Virus record (IMG/VR): IMGVR_UViG_3300048694_000674
Location: 62,001-126,000 of that record
Direction: 5' to 3' (one strand)
Length of the DNA: 64,000 nt
Source of the DNA: a virus
Positions 14,745-64,000 of this stretch are shown piece after piece. Within the stretch, counting starts at the first letter, position 1, and each line of letters starts with the position of its first letter. Both the position numbers and the translations under genes were made by a program. Below the pieces are notes generated by a model, which worked only from the letters and a program-made list of their open reading frames with translations, was not told where the DNA came from and did not search any database.

Positions 14745-15876
14745 CATTGGTGAATTTGTTACCGTTGTAAGTGCTAATTTAGTTCATCAATCAACATTAT
14801 CTGCACCATCAACTGTTCAGAATAAATTTCTGACAGTTGGCGGTTATTATAACCAAGCAGATTATCCTGCTCTTTATGCTCAAATTGGATTGATAGGCGC
14901 ATTCCCAACTACACCAAGAACATCTAATACTAGCTCAAATATAAACTCAGTAACCTATGGTAATGGTCTATATGTTTATGGAGGAGCTGGTGGCGTATTG
15001 GCAACTTCTACGGATGCGATAACTTGGGCAACACAAGCGAGTGGCACAACATCAGTAATTAACTCAGTAACCTATGGTGCTGGTGTATACGCATATGCTG
15101 GAACTGGTGGTGTATTAAAAACATCTACAGATGGTGTTACTTGGACGACACGAACATCTGGAACCGCATCAGCTTTACAAGTAATCACATATACTAATGG
15201 TATATTTTTGTATGGAGGAGCTGGTGGAGTATTGGCAACTTCTACTGATGCTATTACTTGGTCGTCAAAAACTTCTGGAACTACTTCTCAAATAAACCAC
15301 ATAACCTATGGTAATGGTTTATATTTTTATGATACAAATCCAGGTTCTGCGAACGTTGGTTCATCATCAGATGCAACAACATGGACAACAACTATTAATA
15401 CTGGTTTAACAGCAACAATTAAGACTGGTGTTGTTTATGGTAATGGTATATATGTGGTTGGTGACAGATTAGGATCCGTGGCTACATCAACTAACGGTAC
15501 ATCTTGGTCAAATACCAAACCTACTTCAACTGCAATTATTCATATGGCGTATGGTAATGGGTTATTTGTTTATGGCGGTGTTGCTGGTATTCTTGCTACT
15601 TCTGTTGATGGTGTTACATGGACAACTGTATCTTCAAATACAACATCAACAATACAGTGGATAACTTATGGAAATAATTTGTATGTTTATGTTACGCAAT
15701 TGGGAGGAATTATAACATCAAAATCATTTACAGCAGAATATTCTACCTATTATGATGCAACAAGTCAATTTTATGCGCCAGCTTTTACATCTACTGATTT
15801 GTTGACAGTTCAAGCAACATCAACATTGTTATCTTCAGCTGTTTATACTACTACGTATGTGAGGGCAAAAAAATGA
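14707..15876 (+). CDS. Beta-propeller fibre protein with split tail-collar-like domain
   Basis: The product has 389 residues. Residues about 46-64 (GGYYNQADYPALYAQIGLIG) look like the first half of a phage tail-collar domain. The last 40 residues (SQFYAPAFTSTDLLTV...TYVRAKK) look like its second half. Between them are about seven repeats of roughly 40 residues, each with YGNGLYVYGGAGG and TSTDAITW, recalling BNR/sialidase-type propeller blades. The start overlaps the glycosyltransferase gene by 38 bp. Probably a receptor-binding tip; glycan binding is a guess. Confidence 0.6.
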   Translation: MTSPAKSSTPQLNIGEFVTVVSANLVHQSTLSAPSTVQNKFLTVGGYYNQADYPALYAQIGLIGAFPTTPRTSNTSSNINSVTYGNGLYVYGGAGGVLATSTDAITWATQASGTTSVINSVTYGAGVYAYAGTGGVLKTSTDGVTWTTRTSGTASALQVITYTNGIFLYGGAGGVLATSTDAITWSSKTSGTTSQINHITYGNGLYFYDTNPGSANVGSSSDATTWTTTINTGLTATIKTGVVYGNGIYVVGDRLGSVATSTNGTSWSNTKPTSTAIIHMAYGNGLFVYGGVAGILATSVDGVTWTTVSSNTTSTIQWITYGNNLYVYVTQLGGIITSKSFTAEYSTYYDATSQFYAPAFTSTDLLTVQATSTLLSSAVYTTTYVRAKK

Positions 15877-44431: not shown

Positions 44432-45882
44432 TGGATATAATTGAGATAATCAAAGTAGATGAAACATACAATAAGATAAAATGTGATCCTGGTATTGCTT
44501 TTGAATTGAATGATCATTTTACATTCGAAGTTCCTGGCGCTAAATTTATGCCTGCAGTTAGGAACAAATTTTGGGATGGAAAAATTAGATTGTTCAATGC
44601 ATTGACATGTCACATCTATGCTGGTCTCAATAAGTATATCGAAGAGTTTGCTCAAAAAAGAAATTACAAAGTTGAATACAATTACGATATCTCAGCTGAA
44701 GAGTTTTCCGTCAAAGAAGCCAATGACTTTGTTGACTCGCTGAATATTCCATCGAAGTTTGAACGTCGAGATTATCAAATTGATGCCTTTGTTTATGCTA
44801 TCCGCAACAGACGAGCAATGATGCTTTCTCCAACAGCATCTGGTAAGTCGTTCATCATCTATCTAATTACGAGGTATTACAATGCCCGCACTCTTATTAT
44901 CGTTCCAACTACTTCTTTGGTTAGTCAGCTTGCTTCTGATTTTGCCGATTACGGTTTTGCTTCTGATAAGTTCGTCCATAGAATCTTCTCAGGACAGGAT
45001 AAACAAACGTCTAAACCAATTACAATCTCAACATGGCAGTCGATTTACAAACTGGATAAAAAATACTTCGAACAATTTGATGTGGTCATAGGAGATGAAG
45101 CACACTTATTCAAAGCTAAATCTCTTACGAGTATTATGTCTAAGCTGGGCAGCTGTCCACATCGGTTTGGTTTCACTGGTACTCTTGATGGAACTCAAAC
45201 ACATAAGCTCGTCCTCGAAGGTTTGTTCGGTTTGGTGCGAAAGGTTACAACAACATCTGAATTAATTGAACAAAAGCATCTTGCCAACTTTATGATCAAG
45301 GCTATTGTTCTCAAGTATTCAGATGAAATAAAGAAACAGATATCTAAATACGATTATCAGGCAGAACTAGACTTCCTGGTAAGGAATACAGCAAGAAACA
45401 ATTTCATAAAGAATCTTGCTCTGTCGCTAAAAGGTAATACGCTTATACTATTTCAATTTGTCGAAAAACACGGCGATGTTTTACATGACATGATAAAGAA
45501 TGCTACTGATCAGCCTGTTTATTATGTCTATGGTGGAGTTGATGGAGAGGAACGTGAACAAATTCGTAAGATTGTGGAGGAGCAACAAAACGCTATTATC
45601 GTCGCTAGCTCAGGAACTTTCTCCACAGGTGTTAACATTCGCAACCTGCATAACGTTATATTTGCTAGTCCTTCAAAATCCAAAATACGAAATCTTCAGT
45701 CAATTGGTCGCGGACTACGTAAATCAGACAGTAAAGACAGCGCTACTCTATATGACATCGCTGACGATATGACATGGAAAAATAGAAAGAATTATACTAT
45801 ACTACATTTTATGGAACGTATGAGAATATATAATGAAGAGAAATTTGACTACAAAATTTACCCAGTAAATCTAAAGGCATAA
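44431..45882 (+). CDS. uvsW: DNA/RNA helicase UvsW
   Basis: The 483-residue product (T4: 503) is a superfamily 2 helicase. SPTASGKS (133-140) is Walker A, GDEAH (221-225) is motif II, GFTGTLD is motif III and NLQSIGRGLRKSD is motif VI. The N-terminal 90 residues form the UvsW-type substrate domain. UvsW unwinds R-loops and branched intermediates, switching replication from origin- to recombination-dependent. Confidence 0.92.
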   Translation: MDIIEIIKVDETYNKIKCDPGIAFELNDHFTFEVPGAKFMPAVRNKFWDGKIRLFNALTCHIYAGLNKYIEEFAQKRNYKVEYNYDISAEEFSVKEANDFVDSLNIPSKFERRDYQIDAFVYAIRNRRAMMLSPTASGKSFIIYLITRYYNARTLIIVPTTSLVSQLASDFADYGFASDKFVHRIFSGQDKQTSKPITISTWQSIYKLDKKYFEQFDVVIGDEAHLFKAKSLTSIMSKLGSCPHRFGFTGTLDGTQTHKLVLEGLFGLVRKVTTTSELIEQKHLANFMIKAIVLKYSDEIKKQISKYDYQAELDFLVRNTARNNFIKNLALSLKGNTLILFQFVEKHGDVLHDMIKNATDQPVYYVYGGVDGEEREQIRKIVEEQQNAIIVASSGTFSTGVNIRNLHNVIFASPSKSKIRNLQSIGRGLRKSDSKDSATLYDIADDMTWKNRKNYTILHFMERMRIYNEEKFDYKIYPVNLKA

Positions 45883-45884
45883 TA

Positions 45885-46439
45885 ATGGCATCGAAAAAGC
45901 ATTACGTAAATAATAAAGATCTTTATCTAGCGATGGTGAAATTTAAAGAAGCTGTTGACAAAGCGCAAAAAGAAAACAAGCCACTCCCAATAGTTCCTGA
46001 CTATGTTGGTACTTGTTTTATGTTGATATGCAATAAGCTTTCAACCAAACCAAACTTTATGAATTATTCATATAGAGAAGATATGGTTGCTGATGGTATA
46101 GAGAACTGTGTTGCTGCAGCTCACTCTTTTGATCCATCGAAGTCAAACAATCCATTCGCTTACTTTACGCAAATTGCTTGGAATGCTTTTATTAGAAGAA
46201 TCGCCAAGGAAAAGAAACAGTCATATATCAAACATAAAAACTTTGAACACAGCAATTTACTTGACGAATTACTAGAAGAGAGTTATAATACAGGTAAGTC
46301 GACTTATAATGAATATTCAGACGATATTATCAGAAATTTTGAAGATAAATTGGTCAAGAACTCGAAGAAAACAAAGGTAAAACTTGAAAAATTTATAGAG
46401 GAAGACGACAGTGAACAAACTACATCTGGTTCCAGCTAA
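45885..46439 (+). CDS. gp55: Late-transcription sigma factor gp55
   Basis: The 184-residue product (T4: 185) has MASKKHYVNNKDLYLAMVKFKEAV, then YREDMVADGIENCVAAAHSFDPSKSNNPFAYFTQIAWNAFIRRIAKEKKQ, which is the sigma region-2-like core. It directs host RNA polymerase to the late TATAAATA element, tethered to the gp45 clamp. Both the clamp gene and numerous TATAAATA sites lie in this window. Position after uvsW is standard. Confidence 0.9.
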   Translation: MASKKHYVNNKDLYLAMVKFKEAVDKAQKENKPLPIVPDYVGTCFMLICNKLSTKPNFMNYSYREDMVADGIENCVAAAHSFDPSKSNNPFAYFTQIAWNAFIRRIAKEKKQSYIKHKNFEHSNLLDELLEESYNTGKSTYNEYSDDIIRNFEDKLVKNSKKTKVKLEKFIEEDDSEQTTSGSS

Positions 46440-60750: not shown

Positions 60751-61011
60751 ATGTCTAAGACTAATCAGGTATTGCAAGCATTTTTGAATGGTGAAGCTCT
60801 TACTGCTTCTCAAATTACAGCTCGTTATGGTATTGCGAATCCTCATGACACTGTTTATAATCTTCGTAACTCTGGATACGCTGTGTATCTGAATACTAAG
60901 AAGAATTCGAAAGGTGTCAGTGTTTCCAAGTATCGTCTCGGCGCGCCAACTCGTAAGGTTGTAGCAGCTGGGATCGCCGCTCTAGGTGTTCGGGAAGCTG
61001 GTCTCGTCTAA
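60751..61011 (+). CDS. Winged-helix-like small protein
   Basis: The ATG at 60751 follows GGAGAAACTA and is preferred to an ATG 21 bp upstream that overlaps the late promoter region. The 86-residue product has NQVLQAFLNGEALTASQITARYGIANPHDTVYNLRNSGYAVYLN, a helix-turn-helix with a wing, as in small phage regulators. The C-terminal RKVVAAGIAALGVREAGLV is helical. It is followed by a terminator. A transcription role is inferred. Confidence 0.65.
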   Translation: MSKTNQVLQAFLNGEALTASQITARYGIANPHDTVYNLRNSGYAVYLNTKKNSKGVSVSKYRLGAPTRKVVAAGIAALGVREAGLV

Positions 61012-61036
61012 AAGATAAGAAATAACTTATCGAAGG

Positions 61037-61065
61037 GGCGGGACTGAAAAGTACCCGCCTTTTTT
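61037..61065 (+). terminator. Intrinsic terminator
   Basis: GGCGGG and CCCGCC pair (with adjacent AC/GT and one bulge) around a short loop, followed by six Ts. It ends the winged-helix transcript. Confidence 0.75.
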
Positions 61066-61070
61066 AGTGC

Positions 61071-61099
61071 TTTACTTTTTTAGTGAAGTATGGTAATAT
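61071..61099 (+). promoter_or_regulatory. Sigma70-type promoter of the tRNA region
   Basis: TTTACT, 17-bp spacer, TAATAT, directly after a terminator and upstream of the structured RNA and tRNA genes. Confidence 0.6.
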
Positions 61100-61134
61100 A
61101 AAGAATATGCTGTTTGACATTGTTAGAAACCTTT

Positions 61135-61154
61135 GAGACAACTTCGGTTGTCTC
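61135..61154 (+). other. UUCG-capped hairpin in the tRNA leader
   Basis: GAGACAAC and GTTGTCTC form a perfect 8-bp stem with a TTCG loop. Only TTCATGG follows, so it is more likely a leader/processing structure than a terminator. Confidence 0.55.
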
Positions 61155-61159
61155 TTCAT

Positions 61160-61264
61160 GGGTGTATCAGAGCGTGGTCTGGCGCAAAGACTGCTAGGCT
61201 TCTCAGTCCGTCTTATTCGCGATACAACGACGGTGGTGACAGAAGTTAGATAGCTGGTACATCC
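61160..61264 (+). ncRNA. Candidate structured small RNA upstream of tRNAs
   Basis: GGGTGTATCAG (61160-61170) pairs with CTGGTACATCC (61254-61264) over 11 bp with two G-U pairs. Inside are a hairpin GGTCT/AGACT-like (61176-61192), a stem GCTTCT/AGAAGT (61198/61241) and a nested stem CCGTC/GACGG (61208/61229). No reading frame or tRNA cloverleaf fits. T4 has two stable RNAs (C and D) among its tRNAs, so this may be an analogue. Confidence 0.45.
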
Positions 61265-61279
61265 TTGAAGAGATAATGA

Positions 61280-61356
61280 TGGCGCATAGCTCAGTTGATT
61301 AGAGCACGCGATTGATAATCGTGAGGTCGATGGTTTGAGTCCATCTGTGCCAACCA
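61280..61356 (+). tRNA. tRNA-Ile (GAT)
   Basis: Acceptor TGGCGCA/TGTGCCA, anticodon stem CGCGA/TCGTG with loop TTGATAA (anticodon GAT), T arm GATGG-TTTGAGT-CCATC, discriminator A and encoded CCA. A standard cloverleaf of 77 nt. Confidence 0.92.
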
Positions 61357-61360
61357 ATAC

Positions 61361-61434
61361 TGGGAAATCGTCTAATGGTAGGACTACGGTTTTTGGGTCC
61401 GTCTATCGGGGTTCGAGTCCCTGTTTCCCATCCA
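61361..61434 (+). tRNA. tRNA-Gln (TTG)
   Basis: Acceptor TGGGAAA/TTTCCCA, T arm CGGGG-TTCGAGT-CCCTG, anticodon loop TTTTGGG giving TTG, encoded CCA after discriminator T. The anticodon stem ACGGT/TCCGT has a T-T mismatch next to the loop. Confidence 0.85.
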
Positions 61435-61441
61435 ATAAGTT

Positions 61442-61518
61442 TCTGCGTGTCGCCTAGCCTGGTGTGGCACTTCGTTTGGGACGAAGAATAACGGGAGTTC
61501 AAATCTCTCCACGCAGAC
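61442..61518 (+). tRNA. tRNA-Pro (TGG), CCA not encoded
   Basis: Acceptor TCTGCGT/ACGCAGA, anticodon stem CTTCG/CGAAG with loop TTTGGGA (TGG), T arm GGGAG-TTCAAAT-CTCTC. The 3' end runs into CATAAGCGACT of the endonuclease leader with no CCA, unlike most tRNAs here. Confidence 0.88.
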
Positions 61519-61525
61519 ATAAGCG

Positions 61526-61574
61526 ACTCCGATGTATAAATAGTAATGTCAATAAAACTGTTATACATCGGAGT
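61526..61574 (+). promoter_or_regulatory. RBS-sequestering hairpin with embedded late promoter
   Basis: ACTCCGATGTATAA (61526-61539) and TTATACATCGGAGT (61561-61574) are perfectly complementary over 14 bp. The right arm contains the GGAG ribosome site of the endonuclease; the left arm overlaps TATAAATA (61535-61542). RNA from upstream promoters would hide the ribosome site; RNA started from the late promoter would lack the left arm. Confidence 0.75.
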
Positions 61575-61579
61575 GCAGC

Positions 61580-62224
61580 TTGTTTTATACGATCTATAAA
61601 ATTACTAACAAAATAAACAATAAATTCTATATTGGGATGCATAAAACCAATAATTTAGATGATGGTTACATGGGTTCTGGTAAGCTTATTAGAAGAGCCA
61701 TCTCTAAACATGGAATAGAAAATTTCACTAAAGAAATTCTTCATGTGTTTGATAACGAACAAGATATGAAAAATAAAGAGAAACAGCTTGTTATTCTTTC
61801 TGAAAACACCTACAATCTTTGTGATGGTGGTAAAGGCGGATTTGGTTACATCAATTCGAATCCAGAAAAGTTTTTAACAGAAAAGAGATTAAAATCTCTT
61901 TGGACATCAGAAAAAAGAATAAATCGTTGGCGGGAAAAATATAAAAATGATGTAAAATTTAGAAATGATTGTTTAGAAAGATCTAGGCATGCATTGAAAA
62001 AATATAAAGAAAAATATCCAAAAAGTGCATTTTTTGGGCGAACCCATTCTGAGGAAACAAAAAATAAGATGCGTAAGTCGAAAAATGCTGGTGAAAAAAA
62101 TTCACAGTACGGAACTTGTTGGATAACCAATGGTCAAGAAAATAAAAAGATCAAAAAAGAAGAACTTGACAAATTTATCGAATTAGGTTATTATAAAGGT
62201 AGAATAATTAAATTACAAGAATGA
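61580..62224 (+). CDS. GIY-YIG homing endonuclease next to tRNA-Pro
   Basis: The start is TTG, 6 bp after GGAG, and the same arrangement recurs at 63834. The 214-residue product begins [37 protein letters not shown], the full GIY-YIG motif (YTIYKITN...FYIG) with the GYMGSG turn. It continues with a Lys-rich spacer, HSEETKNKMRKS (NUMOD3-like) and a YGTCWITNGQENKKI C-terminal module like that of T4 Seg-type enzymes. It is much more AT-rich than neighbouring tRNAs. It probably cleaves tRNA-region DNA of related phages. Confidence 0.85.
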   Translation: MFYTIYKITNKINNKFYIGMHKTNNLDDGYMGSGKLIRRAISKHGIENFTKEILHVFDNEQDMKNKEKQLVILSENTYNLCDGGKGGFGYINSNPEKFLTEKRLKSLWTSEKRINRWREKYKNDVKFRNDCLERSRHALKKYKEKYPKSAFFGRTHSEETKNKMRKSKNAGEKNSQYGTCWITNGQENKKIKKEELDKFIELGYYKGRIIKLQE

Positions 62225-62235
62225 ACCGTAGGAAT

Positions 62236-62386
62236 GACAGTCTGACTGTCTGATAGTCGGGTAATACAAGCAGAGTGGTTTCTGTGAGTACCGAGTCGCC
62301 TATGCCTCTTGTCGTTGCACTAACCAGCAACGATCGTGTGAGAGAGGGCGCTGTCGCCGAGCAGCAGGAGAGCGTAGGATATACGC
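62236..62386 (+). ncRNA. Candidate structured RNA segment before tRNA-Ser
   Basis: Four hairpins follow each other: GACAGT/ACTGTC (62236-62250), TCGTTGC/GCAACGA (62312-62333), GGCG/CGCC (62347-62358) and GCGTA/TACGC (62372-62386). There is no reading frame with a ribosome site, and no tRNA fits. It may be one RNA or processing signals of the tRNA transcript. Confidence 0.35.
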
Positions 62387-62400
62387 ATCGGCAATAATTT

Positions 62401-62484
62401 GGAGGTATGCGAGCAAGGTGCTCAAACGGTCTTGAAAACCGTGCCACCGCAAGGTTGATGGTTCGATTCCTTGTACCTCCGCCA
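62401..62484 (+). tRNA. tRNA-Ser (TGA)
   Basis: Acceptor GGAGGTA/TACCTCC, anticodon stem ACGGT/ACCGT with loop CTTGAAA (TGA), a long variable arm as in class II tRNAs, discriminator G and encoded CCA. 84 nt. Confidence 0.92.
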
Positions 62485-62487
62485 AAT

Positions 62488-62561
62488 ATCAGTGTCGTAT
62501 AATGGTAGTACAACTGTCTCCAAAACCGTTAGTGTGGGTTCGATTCCTACCACTGGTGCCA
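62488..62561 (+). tRNA. tRNA-Trp (CCA)
   Basis: Acceptor ATCAGTG/CACTGGT, T arm GTGGG-TTCGATT-CCTAC, anticodon loop CTCCAAA (CCA), discriminator G as in Trp tRNAs, encoded CCA. The anticodon stem ACTGT/ACCGT has one T-C mismatch. Confidence 0.82.
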
Positions 62562-62563
62562 TC

Positions 62564-62571
62564 AATAAATA
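62564..62571 (+). promoter_or_regulatory. Late promoter-like AATAAATA
   Basis: Seven of eight match, 39 nt before the lipoprotein start and just after tRNA-Trp. Confidence 0.45.
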
Positions 62572-62602
62572 TTACAAATACAACTCTATCGGAGTAAATC
62601 AA

Positions 62603-62965
62603 ATGAAAGCATTGGTAGTAGCAAGTATCGTAGCACTTTCATTAGCTGGTTGCGCAAGTACATCTGGTCCAAACCAAACAATTGGAACTGGTGTTGGTGC
62701 AGTTGGTGGATATGGTGTTGCAAGAGCATTAGGAGCAGGACCAGCTGGATCTGCATTAGGAGCTGTTGCTGGTGCTTTGATTGGTAATGAAGTTGGTAGA
62801 AGTATTGATGCTCCGAGACCACAGGTCATCGTTCAAGAGCCGAGATATATTGTACAACAACCAAGATATATTGCTCCTCCACCGCCTCGTCGTATCAGCT
62901 GTTATAGCGTATGGGACAATTACCATGGTCGTTATGTAGAGCGCAGAGTTTGTAATAGATATTAA
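62603..62965 (+). CDS. Glycine-zipper lipoprotein
   Basis: The ATG at 62603 follows GGAGTAAATCAA; the longer frame runs through tRNA-Trp and is rejected. The 120-residue product has a lipoprotein signal MKALVVASIVALSLAGC with lipobox LAGC, cleaved before C17. Residues 28-66 form a glycine zipper (GTGVGAVGGYG...AVAGALIGNEVG), as in bacterial SlyB/17-kDa-antigen-type proteins. The rest is Pro/Arg-rich with two Cys. It should be anchored in an envelope membrane. A superinfection-exclusion or envelope-stability role is plausible. Confidence 0.7.
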   Translation: MKALVVASIVALSLAGCASTSGPNQTIGTGVGAVGGYGVARALGAGPAGSALGAVAGALIGNEVGRSIDAPRPQVIVQEPRYIVQQPRYIAPPPPRRISCYSVWDNYHGRYVERRVCNRY

Positions 62966-62973
62966 AAGATTAT

Positions 62974-63052
62974 TCCCAGGAATCCGAGCATGGTGCATGG
63001 ACTTGCCTGTTAAGCAATGATTAGGTGGGATCGTTACCCACACTGGGAGCCA
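62974..63052 (+). tRNA. tRNA-Asn (GTT), somewhat degenerate
   Basis: T arm GTGGG-ATCGTTA-CCCAC is perfect, acceptor TCCCAGG/ACTGGGA has one mismatch, discriminator G and CCA are encoded. The anticodon loop CTGTTAA gives GTT; its stem has four pairs. The D arm is unusual, so function is less certain. Confidence 0.65.
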
Positions 63053-63057
63053 AGCTC

Positions 63058-63139
63058 ATAGGGCATAAAGACGTTATGTCGAGTAATCGCAATTTGCGGC
63101 TAAATGATAACCAAATTGTCACCTTGTGTGGCTCCCTAT
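63058..63139 (+). ncRNA. Candidate cloverleaf-like non-tRNA
   Basis: ATAGGG (63058-63063) pairs with CCCTAT (63134-63139) and encloses three hairpins: CATAA/TTATG (63064-63078), CGCA/TGCG (63088-63098) and GATAA/TTGTC (63106-63120). No T-loop sequence (TTCRANY) is present, so it is not a normal tRNA. It starts 6 nt after tRNA-Asn and would be released with it. Confidence 0.4.
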
Positions 63140-63149
63140 CGAAATCAAT

Positions 63150-63225
63150 GCGAGATTAGCTCAGCTGGGAGAGCGTCTGTTTTACACGCAGAATGTCGGC
63201 AGTTCGATCCTGTCATCTCGCACCA
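63150..63225 (+). tRNA. tRNA-Val (TAC)
   Basis: Acceptor GCGAGAT/ATCTCGC, D arm TAGCTCAGCTGGGAGAGC, anticodon loop TTTACAC (TAC), T arm GGCAG-TTCGATC-CTGTC, encoded CCA. Very close to bacterial tRNA-Val. Confidence 0.93.
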
Positions 63226-63282
63226 TTTGTTTTTAAACGACTAACATTAGATCCTATTCTTATCCGTTTTATATCATTCTTT

Positions 63283-63359
63283 GGTCTGTTAGTTCAGTTG
63301 GTCAGAACACTCGCCTGTCACGCGAGAGGTCATGGATTCGAGTTCCATACAGATCGCCA
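63283..63359 (+). tRNA. tRNA-Asp (GTC)
   Basis: Acceptor GGTCTGT/ACAGATC, anticodon stem CTCGC/GCGAG with loop CTGTCAC (GTC), T arm ATGGA-TTCGAGT-TCCAT, discriminator G, encoded CCA. Confidence 0.93.
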
Positions 63360-63378
63360 CTTTATGATGGAGTATATA

Positions 63379-63699
63379 ATGAATTCGCACGTGAGTTATG
63401 AATACAATATGATGACACTTGTAGCCAATGCTTGGATCAATGGTGGTAATCTTAATGATCCTATCGTTGTCAATAATATGTGTGGTATGGTATTATATAC
63501 AACAGCAAGTAAGATCATTTTATATTTGTATGCAAATGAAGGTTTAGTGATTCCAGATGATATTCTAGAAATCTTAAATAAGGTTGTGCTTCAGATTACA
63601 ACTCTTGTTCCAGAACTTCGTACAGAAGTCCAAGAAGAAAAGTTACAACCAAAAGATTTTTTGAAGTTACAAAAATTTATCGATGATAATATAAGTTAA
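63379..63699 (+). CDS. Hypothetical helical protein
   Basis: The ATG at 63379 follows TGGAGTATATA; earlier in-frame starts lie in tRNA-Asp or have no ribosome site. The 106-residue product (MNSHVSYEYNMMTLVANAWI...) is mainly helical, with a hydrophobic centre (VVNNMCGMVLYTTASKIILYLY) and a charged end (KLQPKDFLKLQKFIDDNIS). It lies between tRNA genes, a common place for orphan phage genes. No family recognised. Confidence 0.55.
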   Translation: MNSHVSYEYNMMTLVANAWINGGNLNDPIVVNNMCGMVLYTTASKIILYLYANEGLVIPDDILEILNKVVLQITTLVPELRTEVQEEKLQPKDFLKLQKFIDDNIS

Positions 63700-63700
63700 T

Positions 63701-63772
63701 GTTGCTTGGGTGGGACGGTAACGCGCAGGTCTGCAAAACCTTGAGAATCCAGTTCAACTCTGGAAAGCAACT
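63701..63772 (+). tRNA. tRNA-Cys (GCA), CCA not encoded
   Basis: Acceptor GTTGCTT/AAGCAAC, anticodon loop CTGCAAA (GCA), T arm TCCAG-TTCAACT-CTGGA, discriminator T as in Cys tRNAs. No CCA: the 3' end runs into CATAAGCGACT of the second endonuclease leader. Confidence 0.88.
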
Positions 63773-63780
63773 CATAAGCG

Positions 63781-63828
63781 ACTCTGATGTATAAATAGCT
63801 ATATGTAAGTCTCTTTATACATCGGAGT
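63781..63828 (+). promoter_or_regulatory. RBS-sequestering hairpin with embedded late promoter, second copy
   Basis: ACTCTGATGTATAAA (63781-63795) pairs with TTTATACATCGGAGT (63814-63828) over 15 bp with one G-U. TATAAATA lies at 63790-63797 and the ribosome site GGAG at 63824-63827. Same design as at 61526. Confidence 0.75.
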
Positions 63829-63833
63829 GCAGC

Positions 63834-64000
63834 TTGTTTTATACAATCTATAAAATTACTAATAATCTTAATGATAAGTTTTATGTTGGTAAACATAAAA
63901 CTATCGATCTTAACGATGGTTATATGGGTTCTGGTAAACTTATCAAACACGCCATAGAAAAATATGGCTTAGAAAACTTTACTAAAGAGATTTTGCATGT
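63834..64000 (+). CDS. GIY-YIG homing endonuclease, cut by window edge
   Basis: The TTG start and leader are the same as at 61580. The 55 visible residues ([20 protein letters not shown], then [27 protein letters not shown]) are a close paralogue of that endonuclease. The gene follows tRNA-Cys as the other follows tRNA-Pro. It continues beyond the window. Confidence 0.8.

Follow-up and report, generated by a model that had tools for sequence, protein, structure and literature searches.

A covarying leader hairpin with an embedded late promoter on tRNA-linked SegB-type endonuclease cassettes: a probable early lock with late release

The window analysed here is a stretch of 64,000 nucleotides (positions 62001-126000 in a virus record of 141,393 bp) that contains two freestanding endonuclease genes within a run of tRNA genes, the first with tRNA-Pro upstream and tRNA-Ser downstream, and the second after tRNA-Cys (Table 1). 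Over its full length, the gene 1 protein is 42% identical to T4 SegB, with 60% positives (reported as 137/230) and an E-value of 1e-47 for the pair, and a C-terminal GEKNSQ motif is common to both. It also matches PHROG 314 (homing endonuclease, E 9e-44) and NUMOD3, while its Pfam GIY-YIG score of 22.1 bits lies just under the cut-off of 22.6. Y17 and G19, which correspond to the residues changed in a catalytically dead T6 SegB according to the available sections of PMC13096335, are present. By homology, gene 1 is a SegB-type GIY-YIG homing endonuclease with predicted cleavage and homing activity, and the occupied and empty alleles found in relatives are consistent with insertion by homing. 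An intron-encoded identity of the I-TevI type is not supported, as the ORF is freestanding between tRNA genes and, in an Rfam scan of 60900-64000, tRNA families alone reached the cut-off and no group I intron was found.

Table 1. Features of the two cassettes and their setting, in window coordinates.
Feature	Position	Strand	Basis or detail
T4 gp55 (late sigma factor) homologue	45849..46439	+	38% identity, E 6e-24, open frame
Early-type promoter motif CTTTACTT-N14-GGTANNAT, ahead of first tRNA; putative read-through source	61070..61099	+	exact match
tRNA-Pro(TGG), discriminator A at 61517, no encoded CCA	61443..61517	+	
Gene 1 leader, from one base past the tRNA discriminator	61518..61579	+	
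Lower stem, pairing with 61578-61583 including UUG	61519..61524	+	RNA fold
5' arm of hairpin	61526..61539	+	repeat scan, fold, covariation
Late promoter motif TATAAATA	61535..61542	+	motif search
Loop and short upper stem; putative late 5' end here	61540..61560	+	fold
3' arm with ribosome site GGAG (61570-61573)	61561..61574	+	repeat scan, fold
SegB-type GIY-YIG homing endonuclease gene 1, 214 aa, TTG start	61580..62224	+	
tRNA-Cys, discriminator T at 63772, no encoded CCA	63701..63772	+	
Second leader	63773..63833	+	arms 63781-63795 and 63814-63828; TATAAATA at 63790-63797
Endonuclease gene 2, 212 aa, running beyond the window end to G000 126472	63834..64000	+	

The leader of gene 1 contains a perfect 14-bp inverted repeat (ACTCCGATGTATAA and TTATACATCGGAGT) around a 21-nt loop, and the initial annotation, which had placed the GGAG ribosome site in the 3' arm and the late promoter in the 5' arm of such a repeat, is confirmed at 61526-61574. 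This is the sole perfect inverted repeat of at least 14 bp with a loop of 3-40 nt in the window, and 20 shuffles of the window yielded one such repeat in total. The first five bases of TATAAATA lie inside the 14-bp arm and the remainder in the short upper stem, and GGAG is located 6 nt upstream of the TTG at 61580. For the RNA spanning 61518 to codon 7, the folding energy is -27.6 kcal/mol as compared to -11.7 +/- 2.7 for shuffled sequences, none of 500 being as low. The predicted fold also extends the stem beyond what was first described, through pairing of 61519-61524 with 61578-61583, and since this pairing includes UUG, the start codon would be sequestered as well. The start-codon pairing, the second copy at 63773-63833 and the exact tRNA junction were absent from the initial annotation. 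The unpaired loop (61540-61560 and its counterparts in other class-A leaders, described below) retains a motif, approximately AATAAGACTA, while the stem varies freely; the motif may represent an operator or the late 5' end.

The gene 2 protein is 64% identical to that of gene 1, and the arms of the two leaders agree at 13 of 14 and 14 of 14 positions as against 12 of 19 in the loop; the single arm difference, C to T, leaves a G-U pair. The second leader folds at -26.0 kcal/mol, again with 0 of 500 shuffles as low. A covariance model of the leader (R1), which scores the gene 1 leader at 70.6 bits (61517-61580), recovers exactly these two leaders on the plus strand of the record, its weaker minus-strand matches being the same two palindromes.

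The genome setting is compatible with transcription of the leaders at two stages. The window holds 13 occurrences of TATAAATA, where 6.4 would be expected, and several of them lie just upstream of large ORFs, which by their starts we take to encode major-capsid-like, tail-sheath-like and other structural proteins. The motif CTTTACTT-N14-GGTANNAT, which probably works as an early-type promoter, has nine matches with up to two mismatches in the window (0.67 expected). Together with the gp55 homologue, these motifs make both an early source of read-through and a late system of the T4 type plausible. Beside the tRNA genes, the noncoding stretches 61104-61279 and 62225-62400 fold better than shuffled sequences (z -2.7 and -2.2) and match no Rfam family at cut-off; they are perhaps small RNAs like T4 rnaC and rnaD.

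The initial annotation had proposed looking for the element in related phages. Searching viral contigs with the two proteins yielded 265 loci, of which the best 80 were used; with the two leaders of the window these provided 82 leaders, 53 of them distinct, and 52 were judged after L059 was set aside as too short. By our reading of the folds, 31 of the 52 (class A) have the design of the window, one long stem over the ribosome site and the promoter; in eight (class B), the start codon and codons 2-3 are the partners of the 5' arm, which is the T4 segB pattern; in ten (class C), a shorter version, the start region has the promoter stretch itself as its partner; and three (L011, L080 and L086) are without such a leader. 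Exact TATAAATA is missing in 10 of the 31 class-A leaders. The three classes cluster on the protein tree (57 rows), with 5 changes against a shuffled mean of 16.7. The design thus recurs in relatives, whereas the strict sequence pattern ATGTATAAATA...TATACATCNGAG had no match in viral contigs, because stem sequences differ between relatives. A looser hairpin pattern returned 92 stretches, mostly before non-endonuclease genes and with weaker stems, and a scan of genome contigs gave one distant relative only. R1 found no match in nine endonuclease loci of named phages or in T4, so that the exact design comes so far from environmental contigs only; the copies in Rhizobium RHph_TM30 and Ochrobactrum OC are without this hairpin. 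In L234, two cassettes (10428 and 12169) that follow different tRNAs have nearly identical leaders with the same hairpin and differing proteins, which suggests that leaders were exchanged or homogenised within one genome.

Covariation was assessed on the 31 class-A leaders. Standard pairs fill 86% of the 527 pair cells against 68% after shuffling, a percentage that is inflated by the choice of these leaders for this very fold. Changes on both sides occur in 11 of 17 pairs, and the covariation score is 0.483, as compared to 0.167 for shuffled and at most 0.144 for slid versions; the selection of the set is unlikely to explain this excess of both-side changes over the slid versions. An independent 16-base pattern, CATAAGC-N10-TATAAATAG, which does not require the 3' arm, gave 53 matches, 33 of them distinct, and 24 of the 33 precede a GIY-YIG ORF. 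At these 24 sites, the uninterrupted stem is at least 11 in 22 cases and 10 in the other two, and a tRNA T-loop, identified by regular expression, lies upstream in 23. Among the nine sites without GIY-YIG, seven have stems of 5-7, one of them with a chance T-loop match; of the others, L225 (and its copies) has the hairpin and a tRNA with no recognised ORF start, and L248 has a local stem of 12.

The accessibility of the start region was compared in silico between the long RNA and a late RNA modelled from 13 bases past the first base of TATAAATA. In the 37 distinct leaders that have TATAAATA exactly, the fraction of the start region left unpaired rises from 0.25 (long RNA) to 0.52 (late-start RNA), and the folding energy changes from -24.5 to -3.9; the two copies in the record move from 0.18 to 0.54 and from 0.16 to 0.56, and the late RNA of copy 1 keeps a weak fold of -6.8 kcal/mol. 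In 28 control late-promoter genes of related contigs, from loci not selected for hairpins, the fraction rises from 0.40 to 0.54 and the energy from -16.6 to -6.4. Leaders and controls differ in long-RNA accessibility (p 2.6e-5) and in the energy difference (p 1e-8), and no significant difference was found in the accessibility of the late-start RNA. A gain above 0.2 is seen in 25 of 37 leaders and also in 13 of 28 controls, so the gain by itself is weakly specific and the test a modest one; leaders and controls are told apart better by the energy difference and by how poorly accessible the long RNA is.

At its boundary with the tRNA, the cassette starts exactly one base past the discriminator. 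The tRNA tails were tabulated for the forward strand, counting each distinct sequence once and requiring at least 6 of the 7 acceptor pairs. Among the 43 distinct tRNAs directly upstream of the genes, the discriminator is followed by CA in 35, by CCA in three and by other bases in five, whereas 402 of 430 other tRNAs from the same loci have CCA, 15 CA and 13 other tails; at least eight of these 28 non-CCA tRNAs precede further endonuclease cassettes. For class A and B leaders, 34 of 36 tRNAs have CA and none CCA; the remaining two are L049 and L018, and in the latter the discriminator was probably misplaced by the automatic rule. The exceptions that retain CCA, L069, L080 and L084, have class-C leaders or none. 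The cassettes use 16 tRNA isotypes, with at least 28 isotype changes across 44 tree rows, which indicates that cassettes moved between tRNA genes.

Matched occupied and empty sites point in the same direction. A tRNA-Asp gene present in 13 stretches carries the cassette in six (G followed by CATAAGCG) and is empty in seven (G followed by CCA), and at the occupied sites the stop codon of the ORF abuts the next tRNA-like gene. The pairs L056/L071 and L039/L032 present the same contrast; in L039, at about 2330-2435, a tRNA-like RNA missed by ARAGORN and Rfam stands before the cassette, and the empty L032 form ends in CCA. In T4, the A of tRNA-Ile is followed by TATTTTGAG...segB, while a near-identical tRNA-Ile of PSD2002 without segB has A followed by CCAACTAT. 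In FL44, the T4 leader is found on another tRNA-Ile, which has A followed by CCA where it is empty (slur02, RB51 and FFH2), and in Providencia PSTCR6 the T4 leader comes directly after tRNA-Asn. The matched tRNA-Asp sites and the comparison of T4 with PSD2002 show that insertion removes the encoded CCA. As an exception, an RB51 endonuclease that follows tRNA-Gly without this leader retains the CCA.

Several known systems are controlled in a comparable way. According to passages of PMC2988022 and PMC3014915, I-TevI, I-TevII, I-TevIII, T4 segB and Aeh1 mobE share promoter/hairpin control, and T4 segB, freestanding inside a tRNA cluster, is reviewed there as translationally controlled. The initial annotation had contrasted the freestanding, tRNA-linked case with the known ones as new, a contrast that fails since T4 segB has already been reviewed with the same arrangement. 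T4 SegB is likewise a freestanding GIY-YIG enzyme in a tRNA cluster (tRNA-Ile, segB, tRNA-Arg), directly after a discriminator without CCA, and its leader also forms a hairpin with a late-promoter-like sequence. In the T4 leader, however, the 5' arm pairs with the start codon and the next codons around a second stem that contains the Shine-Dalgarno (SD) sequence, whereas in the window a single long stem pairs both SD and start codon and covers exact TATAAATA; moreover, the T4 leader is unmatched by R1, and the window has two copies of the cassette, unlike T4. In I-TevI, I-TevII and I-TevIII, as far as the passages of PMC2988022 describe them, a read-through hairpin hides the ribosome site and the gene's own late (or middle) promoter omits the 5' arm; these enzymes are intron-encoded, unlike the gene in the window. 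Aeh1 mobE is a freestanding homing endonuclease with a sequestered ribosome site (PMC2988022 and PMC3014915, in part), but belongs to the HNH family and lies in a ribonucleotide reductase gene region (PMC2988022, in part) rather than next to tRNAs. Finally, the early read-through RNAs of T4 e and soc fold over the ribosome site, and the late promoters of gene e yield RNA without the 5' arm (PMC3014915, in part), yet both are ordinary late genes and not mobile cassettes.

Taken together, we consider it very likely that the leader is the control region of a mobile SegB-type cassette on the 3' end of a tRNA gene, with an early hairpin lock that is released from a late promoter. Early RNA of the tRNA operon would read through the cassette, and its leader would fold into the long hairpin. 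With the ribosome site and start codon buried there, no nuclease would be made early. By the geometry of T4 late promoters, RNA from TATAAATA should start within the loop (61540-61560) and, because TATAAATA sits inside the 5' arm, would be without that arm, unfolded and translated. The hairpin, its covariation, the placement of the promoter, the second copy, the tRNA junction and the loss of CCA are all read from sequence and comparison. The anatomy, the covariation, the gp55-type sigma gene and the repeated early-type promoter lend good support to the block and late opening that the initial annotation put forward.

A different origin of the palindrome, in which it is kept at the DNA level by copying of one arm from the other in replication or repair (quasi-palindrome correction) or as a dyad bound by protein, with no translation switch, seems improbable to us. 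It would account for the near perfection of the class-A stems, where 457 of 467 pairs are Watson-Crick and three are G-U, and for the L234 copies, which share the hairpin sequence though their proteins differ. As the stems are nearly perfect and G-U pairs barely outnumber the single A-C mismatch, selection at the RNA rather than the DNA level is likely but unproven, and these counts do not fix the strand on which selection acts. However, a dyad operator would conserve sequence, while the stem bases vary freely with pairing kept, and templated copying could make perfect arms but leaves unexplained why they are maintained at this place, where an arm covers the ribosome site or the start codon in three different designs.

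Less probable still is a hairpin that serves mainly the 3' processing of the upstream tRNA or the stability of the downstream message, with any effect on translation being secondary. The position of the leader directly after the discriminator, the stem base only a few bases from the tRNA end and the loss of the encoded CCA would suit such a role, which however would not call for the 5' arm to hold a late promoter or for the ribosome site or start codon to be paired, and in classes B and C the pairing involves the start codon itself. That the strong stem in intergenic space is a transcription terminator or a chance repeat is hardly credible, given that no T run follows, that a terminator scan made no call at the hairpin, and that chance is excluded by the covariation and the second copy and contradicted by the window shuffles.

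An early lock with late release might also have a biological rationale. In the accessible parts of a study of T6 SegB (PMC13096335, Nat Commun 2026), the enzyme cuts inside tRNA genes with a preference for RAWTSGAAC, its overproduction inhibits growth of E. coli, and SegB homologues are enriched near tRNAs of many isotypes, measured as co-location within 1 kb. A term search of the accessible text of PMC13096335 gave no mention of a hairpin, late promoter, CCA or discriminator. We read RAWTSGAAC as the reverse complement of a tRNA T-loop sequence, and the toxicity of SegB could be the reason for early silence. RAWTSGAAC lies near the promoter, with 0-1 mismatch, in 7 of 11 class-C or other leaders (shuffle p <0.05 in three, L072, L084 and L086), and gave no signal in the 14 class-A leaders tested. 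In L061, L068, L072, L082 and L084, T-loop-like GACTCGAAC/GAATCGAAC occurs near RAWTSGAAC just upstream of the late promoter, with weak statistics, an arrangement that recalls the I-TevI operator.

Here we speculate, and hold this only as a tentative possibility, that SegB cassettes are mobile elements specific for tRNA 3' ends, whose enzyme recognises the T-arm that all tRNA genes have in common, and which dock one base past the discriminator of any isotype and delete the CCA. If so, the CCA-less tRNA precursor could be cleaved precisely where the cassette begins, for instance by RNase Z/BN, an enzyme inhibited by CCA; the tRNA would be freed and the inhibitory hairpin left whole on the nuclease message, and the cassette would couple tRNA maturation to early silence of a toxic nuclease and to its late expression.

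While the switch logic on a freestanding, tRNA-linked enzyme is not new, given the T4 segB precedent, what does seem new is how widely it occurs, the covariation, the division into three leader designs and the precise tRNA junction at which CCA is lost. The insertion rule and the CCA loss were not found stated in the literature searched, which comprised mainly titles and the starts of abstracts, with subscription journals largely outside. A handful of T4 examples thus becomes what looks like a family-wide rule, a covarying RNA lock of which the 5' arm is the late promoter, with an exact insertion point one base past the discriminator and CCA lost. The comparison with empty alleles offers an explanation for the CCA-less tRNA-Ile before segB in T4, and the insertion rule could aid the annotation of missed endonucleases and CCA-less tRNAs in environmental phages.

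Two further observations concern other genes of the relatives. A strong hairpin also covers the start of a non-endonuclease gene (MTQLISPQKF...) in L107 (1332) and L175 (103). Its 5' arm contains TATAAATA, so that this gene may be a late gene of another kind under the same switch. In L003, at 15027-15700, a DNA polymerase frame is seemingly split by a stretch with an ORF (ERSDYESHHIFPKSIYG...) that we take to be HNH-like, perhaps another mobile element.
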